Below, one piece after another: positions 28,146-43,200 of a DNA stretch of 64,000 nt (its first letter is position 1; every line of letters begins with the position of its first letter). The stretch lies in the NCBI GenBank assembly GCA_019694355.1, contig JAIBCB010000002.1, forward strand, positions 1 to 64,000, written 5' to 3'. The notes beneath the pieces were generated by a model, which made no database searches, was not told where the DNA came from, and saw nothing but the letters and a program-made list of their open reading frames with translations. This stretch comes from Pyrinomonadaceae bacterium. GTDB lineage: Bacteria; Acidobacteriota; Blastocatellia; Pyrinomonadales; Pyrinomonadaceae. The position numbers and the translations under genes were made by a program.

Positions 28146-28291
28146 GCGTTGAAGAAGCCCGCACGTTAGTAAGGGCACGCATCATCATTCATTCTACGGC
28201 TGATTAGCCCTCACAAGCTCGGCTTCCATTCCCAATTAACAATCCACAATGAACAATTCACAATGAACAATTCACAATTTCCCGATGTTTG
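28146..28291. other. Gene-free stretch with AACAATTCACAAT-type repeats
   Basis: No credible gene. AT-rich tandem words (AACAATCCACAATG, AACAATTCACAATG, AACAATTCACAATTT) run from 28237 to 28280. A similar tract lies at 35250-35345. These look like decayed repeat DNA. Confidence 0.6.
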
Positions 28292-28440
28292 TCCCGTCCC
28301 ACCGTCGGTGGGCAAGTGGGACAAAGTGGGACAAGAATCGGCGTTCTGGCGACCTGCGGTTACAATTTTTGTCACTATTGTCAAAGATCAGAGTGTAAAA
28401 CGCATGTTTACACCCTCTCTACGAGTATATCACACGTGTC
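28292..28440 (-). repeat. Composite intergenic element, copy A
   Basis: Read on the minus strand from about 28442: a core CTTGACACGTGTGATATACT followed by CGTAGA, then a hairpin GTGTAAA-CATGCG-TTTTACAC, the motif ATCTTTGACAA, a GTGACAAAAATTG segment, and finally repeats of GTCCCAC (tandem 10-mers at 28315-28334) with a perfect palindrome CCCACC-GTC-GGTGGG (28298-28312). The same parts in the same order occur on the plus strand at 43011-43200. No open frame is shared. Confidence 0.65.
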
Positions 28441-28471
28441 AAGCGCTATTTTGTGAGAGTCTCTTCGAATT

Positions 28472-42472: not shown

Positions 42473-42655
42473 CTGCGCGTGTGAAACACGCGATCATTGC
42501 CATTGTCGCGGCCTTGCCGCTCTATTTGCGGATAAGCTCTTTTCTTCGTGCGGCTCTGCCGCTCTATTTGCGGAAAAGCTCTGCTTTTCCGGCCCGTGGC
42601 CGAAGAATTACCGCGGCTTGCCGCCGCCCTTGTTCGGAGGCTGAGCCTCCGAGGA
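42473..42655. repeat. Chain of seven mini-hairpins
   Basis: Seven perfect palindromes with 2-4-nt loops in 180 bp: CGCGTGT-GAA-ACACGCG (42476-42492), GCGGC-CTT-GCCGC (42508-42520), GCGGC-TCT-GCCGC (42550-42562), CGGAAAAGC-TCT-GCTTTTCCG (42571-42591), GGCC-CGT-GGCC (42591-42601), GCGG-CTTG-CCGC (42613-42624) and CGGAGGC-TGA-GCCTCCG (42635-42651). The words TCTATTTGCGG and TTCGTGCGG also repeat. Open frames across it are by-products. Confidence 0.75.
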
Positions 42656-42666
42656 TCAAATGGAAG

Positions 42667-42975
42667 TCTTCGACGGTGAAGCAGAGGTTCTGGCGTCACA
42701 ACACCGCCAGTGTTCCGGTAAGCCGGAACCGCACCGCAAATAGACGGGCAAAGCCCGAAAGAAAGAGAGTGACTCCTCGTCGGTGAAGCAGAGGTTCTGG
42801 CGTCACAACACCGCCAGTGTTCCGGTAAGCCGGAACCGCACCGCAAATAGGCGGGCAAAGCCCGAACGAAAGCGAGTGACTCTTCGACGGTGAAGCAGAT
42901 GTTCTGGCGTCACAACACCGCCAGTGTTCCGGTAAGCCGGAACCGCACCGCAAATAGATGGGCATAGCCCGAAGA
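42667..42975. repeat. Three tandem 107-bp repeats, each with three hairpins
   Basis: Unit starts at about 42667, 42774 and 42881 (period 107; the last is slightly short). Each holds CTGGCG-9 nt-CGCCAG (42690-42710 in unit 1), GTTCCGG-TAAG-CCGGAAC (42712-42729) and CGGGC-AAA-GCCCG (42745-42757). The hairpin parts are near-identical while the ~25-bp linker varies. Period, loops and lack of unique spacers exclude a CRISPR array. Confidence 0.9.
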
Positions 42976-43010: not shown

Positions 43011-43200
43011 CGTCTTGACACGTATGCTATACTCGTAGATGTGGATGCAACAGGTGTTGTGTATCTTGTTCTTTGAAAAACTTATGGTTCTCTGGTCGAA
43101 AAAATGTTTTTTATTTTGGTTTTTGTCACCATAAACCCTGCTGCTGCAACAGTTATCTGTCCACTACGAGGGTAGTGGACAGTTTGTGGACAGTGAACAG
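43011..43200 (+). repeat. Composite intergenic element, copy B
   Basis: Core CTTGACACGTATGCTATACT plus CGTAGA (43014-43039), then CAACA-GG-TGTTG (a small hairpin), TTCTTTGAAAAA, a GTTTTTGTCACC segment, and a perfect palindrome CTGTCCACTA-6 nt-TAGTGGACAG (43157-43182) followed by another GTGGACAG (43186-43193). The order equals copy A at 28292-28440. No gene is seen from 42362 to 43273. Confidence 0.65.

Follow-up and report, generated by a model that had tools for sequence, protein, structure and literature searches.

The dispersed intergenic cassettes described here carry arrays of short repeats, and in one genome after another these match the repeats next to a stand-alone helicase-like DNA-binding gene. 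This suggests a so far undescribed system made up of a gene and its scattered target sites. Two of these cassettes, copies A and B, lie in the window, which is the whole 64,000-nucleotide stretch of DNA, from an uncultured acidobacterium (Pyrinomonadaceae), that was analyzed; the data are metagenome-assembled genomes (MAGs). We consider it fairly probable that A and B belong to a set of over 30 non-autonomous cassettes in intergenic DNA, the arrays of which serve as binding sites for orphan ATPase-HTH proteins. The basis for this is at the sequence level: the copy number, the fixed order of parts, the conservation across species, the homology between copy A and the end of the gene, and the match between the motifs of gene and arrays.

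Copy A (28443-28281, minus strand, ~160 bp) begins with the core CTTGACACGTGTGATATACTCGTAGA (28418..28443), in which TTGACA is followed by the extended -10 promoter-like TGATATACT and CGTAGA. Next come a 5' hairpin, GAGGGTGTAAACATGCGTTTTACACTC (28391..28417), and a boxA-like motif, TGATCTTTGACAA (28378..28390), that is almost invariant among copies. The 3' half (28283..28376) is homologous to the 3' end of an orphan AAA_25-HTH gene and contains a hairpin-forming TGTCCCA array (28287..28334), in which two direct TGTCCCAC units and inverted GTGGGAC and GGGACA units form a long hairpin with a period of 10. Copy B (43014 to about 43200, plus strand) consists of the core CTTGACACGTATGCTATACTCGTAGA (43014..43039), the 5' hairpin region GTGGATGCAACAGGTGTTGTGTATC (43040..43068) with the GCAAC-N4-GTTGY pattern common to B-type copies, the boxA-like motif TTCTTTGAAAAA (43069..43080), and the array CTGTCCACTAC..GTAGTGGACAG..TTGTGGACAG (43158..43200), a GTCCAC variant with the identical change in all units. 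The two copies thus have the 5' half in common, but their arrays differ (TGTCCCA in A, GTCCAC in B). Orthologues of copy B carry GTCCAC in G017 (L060) and GTCCCAC in G003 (L042). The pattern TTGACA-N7-TATACT (up to two mismatches) has 7 matches in the window compared with 1.8 expected, and copies A and B match it exactly.

An earlier note on this DNA had described the two cores as near-identical, and they are (24/26 positions equal, 2/26 different). The order that it gave for both copies, namely core, hairpin of differing sequence, TCTTTGA word and GTCC(C)AC palindromes, is also conserved; this is a composite element with a fixed order of parts, conserved across species. Its pairing of GTGACAAAAA in copy A with TTTTTGTCAC in copy B as equivalent parts did not hold up, as the two are not homologous and the GTGACA of copy A corresponds to the stop-codon region at the 3' end of a gene. 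Other repeats lie close to both copies. A 7/14-bp minisatellite, ATTCACAATGAACA, is present 3' of copy A (28228-28279), and similar runs are found 3' of many A-type copies and also flanking one RAYT locus. Just upstream of copy B (42508-42973) is a palindromic repeat array with a 107-bp period, which matches repeats flanking the RAYT (Y1_Tnp) gene at G000:C6:462685 (L103).

A search of the whole host genome with the core YTTGACANNNRTGNTATACTYGTARA, allowing up to three mismatches, yielded 22 matches, with none for the reversed-pattern control, and a sequence-only profile covering the core, hairpin and CTTTGA word yielded 32 copies. The element is therefore two-copy only within the window, as the note had called it, and a core confined to two occurrences is excluded. 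Four sister species also carry profile copies (20 in G003, 21 in G017, 7 in G022 and 2 in G021); none was found in the remaining 36 searched genomes of the genus.

The copies fall into subfamilies. About 27 similar host copies of ~160 bp, copy A included, form the A-type, which comprises the core, the hairpin GGTGTAAAC-ATAT-GTTTTACACC, TGATCTTTGACAA and TAGTGACAAAAATTGT, then a variable module and CGAT..TTGTCCCACTTTGTCCCAC..GTGGGACGGGACAAACATCG. The B-type (several host copies, including copy B) has the core, the hairpin GCAAC-N4-GTTGC and TTCTTTGAAAA, then a stretch rich in T and, after it, the conserved domain GTAA..ASTTATTTGTCCCAC..GTGGGACA..GTGGGACA, which is present in other species of the genus too. 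The C-type (L065-L080 and L175-L182; about 19 host copies, and also found in G003) is promoter-less and lacks the core, and it carries the same TGTCCCA array domain as the B-type cassettes.

The genes that flank the cassettes are unrelated housekeeping genes, in either orientation and often convergent. A role for the core as the leader of a downstream gene was rejected, as the neighbors are unrelated and the orientation is mixed; a phage origin was likewise rejected, as viral scans gave isolated matches only. Several cassettes occupy orthologous sites in different species, with site positions mostly unconserved between sister species. Some intergenic spots seem to collect cassettes repeatedly, since the cassette type in an intergenic region can differ from that in its orthologue in another species (L019 vs L165, L147 vs L162, and L026 vs L182). 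Recent duplication within a genome is seen for L145/L147 (95% identity over 570 bp) and for four G017 copies, among which L164 is homologous to the remaining three from the core onward, or from about 15 nt before it. No target-site duplication and no sharp common ends were established.

From its sequence, we infer that the core is an extended -10 promoter and that the cassettes are probably transcribed. It does not have sigma-70 boxes (TTGACA/TATAAT) 16-18 bp apart, as the spacing in the host clade is 7 bp. In G031 and G010, which belong to the TGTTTCA lineage (see below), several dispersed cassettes begin with TTGACC-N17/18-ATGATACATTCGTG, promoters that resemble RTGNTATACTCGTA and are homologous to the copy A core. 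As these related cassettes have spacings of about 17-18 bp, the 7-nt spacing of the host clade is probably due to a spacer deletion of about 10 nt. A sigma-54 promoter was rejected, since the copies do not conserve the GG at -24 and the GC at -12. The boxA-like sequences 3' of the promoter, TGATCTTTGACAA and TTCTTTGAAAA, match the rRNA boxA TTGATMTTTGAAAAC of the same genus, whose rRNA leaders consist of CTTGACA-N17-TATAAT, a short hairpin and TTGATMTTTGAAAACTA, followed by 16S. The likeness to boxB/boxA leaders that had been raised earlier as a speculation is borne out in this respect, in that the promoter-hairpin-CTTTGA order of the cassettes resembles the promoter-hairpin-boxA order of these leaders.

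In the 5' hairpin, 90.5% of cells pair across 32 copies, and two pairs changed on both sides. By eye, its subfamilies pair in two registers, and RNAalifold found no consensus fold for the mixed 5' alignment. For the 32 A-type sequences, 92.9% of cells pair, compared with 32-50% when the partners were slid, and double-change cells number 22 versus 9.1 in shuffled alignments; the A-type array hairpin has changes on both sides at three pairs. A C-to-T switch at pairs 115-154 and 125-149 (six cells each) tracks the GTTCC variant described below, and these switches therefore count as one kind of event rather than many independent ones. The B-type array hairpin has almost no covariation across the genus. 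Membership in a known RNA family was rejected, as the element had no Rfam match at the gathering score. Taken together, the compensated pairing partly supports the structured RNA that the earlier note had proposed alongside a protein-binding locus. What the note missed is that the 3' repeats behave as sites for a sequence-specific protein would, judging from the conservation of their sequence within a lineage, their iteration every 9-11 bp or so, and the switching of their motif together with that of the array at the helicase-HTH gene.

This gene was found through a search for TGTCCCA doublets, which led to a locus (L254) where an A-type 3' half lies directly 3' of an orphan AAA_25-HTH gene (AAA-1; G000:C1:163879-165180, host chromosome), the stop codon falling within AGTGACAAAAATTGTCGC. 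Window copy A is 84.8% identical to the 3' end of the gene over 99 bp, stop codon included (E=3e-23). Likewise, A-type copies of G017 are 87-89% identical to the gene end of G017 itself and 75-78% identical to that of the host. A solo A-type 3' half without the host-clade core is also present at L255 (1982-2078; 79% over 98 bp). The host protein has Pfam matches above cut-off to AAA_25 (E=8e-21) and a C-terminal HTH_23, and its predicted model has a RecA-like core, mostly of high confidence, plus the HTH, with T7 gp4 helicase as the best PDB fold match. The model suggests that the product is a RecA-fold ATPase of the DnaB/T7-gp4 type with a C-terminal HTH. Of 41 genomes of the genus, 28 have a member of this gene family. 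Its genes in the host and G017 stand alone on the chromosome, where their neighbors are housekeeping genes and none was seen to be a replicon gene; distant homologues occur in Bacteroides mobilizable elements and in plasmid records.

A B-type cassette lies divergently upstream of a second AAA-HTH gene, AAA-2 (host C7), and arrays are found at about the same distance from the hits in G003 and G017. A palindromic promoter-like TGTGATACAATGTAGCACA lies between the AAA-2 start codon and this cassette (L256, about 2200-2250), and similar palindromes are found in B-type copies of another species, SSF22. Some AAA homologues have no clear adjacent array, and a simple autocorrelation/periodicity score did not separate the flanks of AAA genes from controls. 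In G003, a close AAA-1 orthologue was not detected, though A-type cassettes are present there. An AAA homologue of G003 at C3:10625 (L267) has an in-frame TAG, and at its 3' end lies a perfect tandem array of 9-bp units, CGTTCATAG.

The array at the AAA-1 stop codon has a different motif in different lineages: GTCCCA in the host, GTTCCG in G017, TGTTCCA in G002, and GTGTTTCA in G031, G019, G010 and G020. It was predicted in advance, and borne out, that dispersed TGTTTCA arrays would be confined to the last group: there are 34, 31, 30 and 25 matches in these four genomes, which are not independent as their AAA genes are related, compared with none in the host or G017, one in G003 and at most 6 elsewhere. 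The dispersed TGTTTCA loci are promoter-plus-array cassettes or bare arrays. Among A-type arrays, GTCCC outnumbers GTTCC 25:1 in the host and 6:1 in G003, and the ratio in G017 is 1:6 (p=4e-5 for host vs G017); at sites shared by descent (L029/L047/L064, L143/L152/L159, L145/L040/L160, and L144/L063), GTTCC is found only in G017. The orthologous host and G017 proteins are about 92% identical over the match; around the recognition helix, 4 of 15 positions differ, versus 29 of 409 elsewhere (p=0.023). The B-type arrays of G017 are still GTCCC although its A-type arrays changed, so a second partner would be needed. A unit spacing of 10-11 bp was rejected as a helical-phase proof of a DNA site, since the TGTTTCA arrays have a period of 9.

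The simplest reading of these sequences is that the arrays are predicted binding sites for the HTH of the ATPase, and that the A, B and C cassettes are their non-autonomous carriers. A cassette would join an extended -10 promoter, with its 5' hairpin and boxA-like motif for antitermination, to a short-repeat array spaced at about 9-11 bp, and each ATPase-HTH gene would carry an array of its own, placed 3'-terminally in AAA-1 and divergently upstream in AAA-2. The HTH may bind the repeat units and the ATPase domains may assemble on the array, with loading aided by transcription through the array and boxA helping against Rho. Dispersal would then occur by duplication at the DNA level, the protein acting in trans, which is also how RAYTs are thought to work on REPINs. 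We favor such a role for the pair, by analogy, over an origin-like activity or chromosome organization.

The best-known long-lived partnership of a bacterial gene with dispersed repeats is REPIN-RAYT. There, a low-copy chromosomal gene is flanked by repeats and accompanied by dispersed non-autonomous hairpin repeats (PMC3116915; PMC8266576). The likeness lies in a low-copy, repeat-flanked gene with tens of dispersed, cognate, non-autonomous and hairpin-forming repeats, the partner here being the AAA_25-HTH gene; the differences are that this partner is a predicted RecA-fold ATPase with an HTH instead of a Y1 tyrosine transposase, and that a promoter-boxA cassette here holds tandem repeats with 9-11 bp units and not palindromes of 20-40 bp. 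That the cassettes are themselves REP/REPIN elements mobilized by a host RAYT is very improbable. The host does have 14 Y1_Tnp matches, with repeat families of their own, and many other palindromic repeats, which flank RAYT genes, but the core is absent from all 14 of these loci and TGTCCCA occurs at only one (L099), as a single site more than 1 kb from the gene; a RAYT link was rejected on these grounds. We give equally little credence to the idea that the AAA-HTH proteins bind chromosome-organizing sites of the parS or matS kind: the scatter of tens of sites between genes and a candidate chromosomal binding protein would fit, whereas the poor conservation of positions between sister species and the intergenic spots with differing cassette types would not. 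An open-access literature search found no description of a helicase-HTH protein with dispersed arrays, an absence that is no proof that none exists.

Small structured non-coding RNA genes, with a promoter core, a stabilizing 5' hairpin, boxA and a 3' hairpin, would account for the paired changes and G-U pairs in the hairpins, the promoter-hairpin-boxA order and the independence from neighboring genes. The repeats would then act in RNA, with an RNA-binding protein sponged up by them as one example, and the same motif would be in the 3' UTR of the gene. We think this unlikely for the cassette as a whole, given that no Rfam family matches, that sequence is conserved in every array unit, including those beyond the hairpin arms, that the B-type hairpin hardly covaries, and that the promoter half is missing from the C-type copies and from many TGTTTCA arrays; an RNA reading is possible chiefly for the 5' half. 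Less likely still are relics of integrated iteron-type replicons or satellites, with origin-like regions (promoter transcript, A+T-rich stretch and iterons) and AAA_25-HTH as the helicase gene. In iteron-controlled replicons, a Rep gene lies next to direct repeats, as in incA-type loci, and here too a DNA-binding gene of replication type has a direct-repeat array immediately 3', beginning at the AAA-1 stop codon. The A+T-rich (T-rich) stretch adjoining B-type arrays, the helicase fold and the distant homologues in mobilizable elements and plasmid records point the same way. Against this, the genes are solitary chromosomal orphans near housekeeping genes in the host and G017, with no replicon genes beside them; the units are 9-11 bp in dozens of dispersed arrays; and in place of a winged-helix initiator there is AAA_25 plus HTH_23 with a DnaB/gp4-like fold. 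The AAA ATPase of CfxA-carrying Bacteroides mobilizable elements (e.g. CP103138) is about 35% identical over ATPase and HTH, but it lies within a module of integrase, transposase, excisionase and mobilization protein genes, while the gene here is solitary with an array.

Leaders with a boxA are known from CRISPR arrays as well as rRNA operons, as discussed in PMC7862264, which cites Stringer et al. 2020. Relative to the leaders as outlined there, the cassettes have in common a promoter, a hairpin and a CTTTGA-type boxA upstream of untranslated sequence; they differ in being short and dispersed, in having a protein-site-like array downstream rather than rRNA or CRISPR repeats, and in that antitermination is putative here. 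Apart from rRNA operons and CRISPR arrays, boxA-bearing promoter cassettes would be an unusual setting for antitermination signals.

Our broadest proposal is a tentative one, which we hold at somewhat below even chances: a new two-part intragenomic system in Acidobacteriota, in which an orphan ATPase-HTH protein of the replicative-helicase type recognizes, and helps to spread or maintain, tens of dispersed transcribed cassettes, the array motif and the recognition helix co-evolving in each lineage. The natural protein/DNA-motif pairs (GTCCCA, GTTCCG, TGTTCCA and GTGTTTCA) would allow a direct test of co-evolution between an HTH and its site. If the proposal is true, this would be a second kind of partnership between a gene and dispersed repeats, built on a helicase-like ATPase, and it would mean that such partnerships arise from different enzymes.
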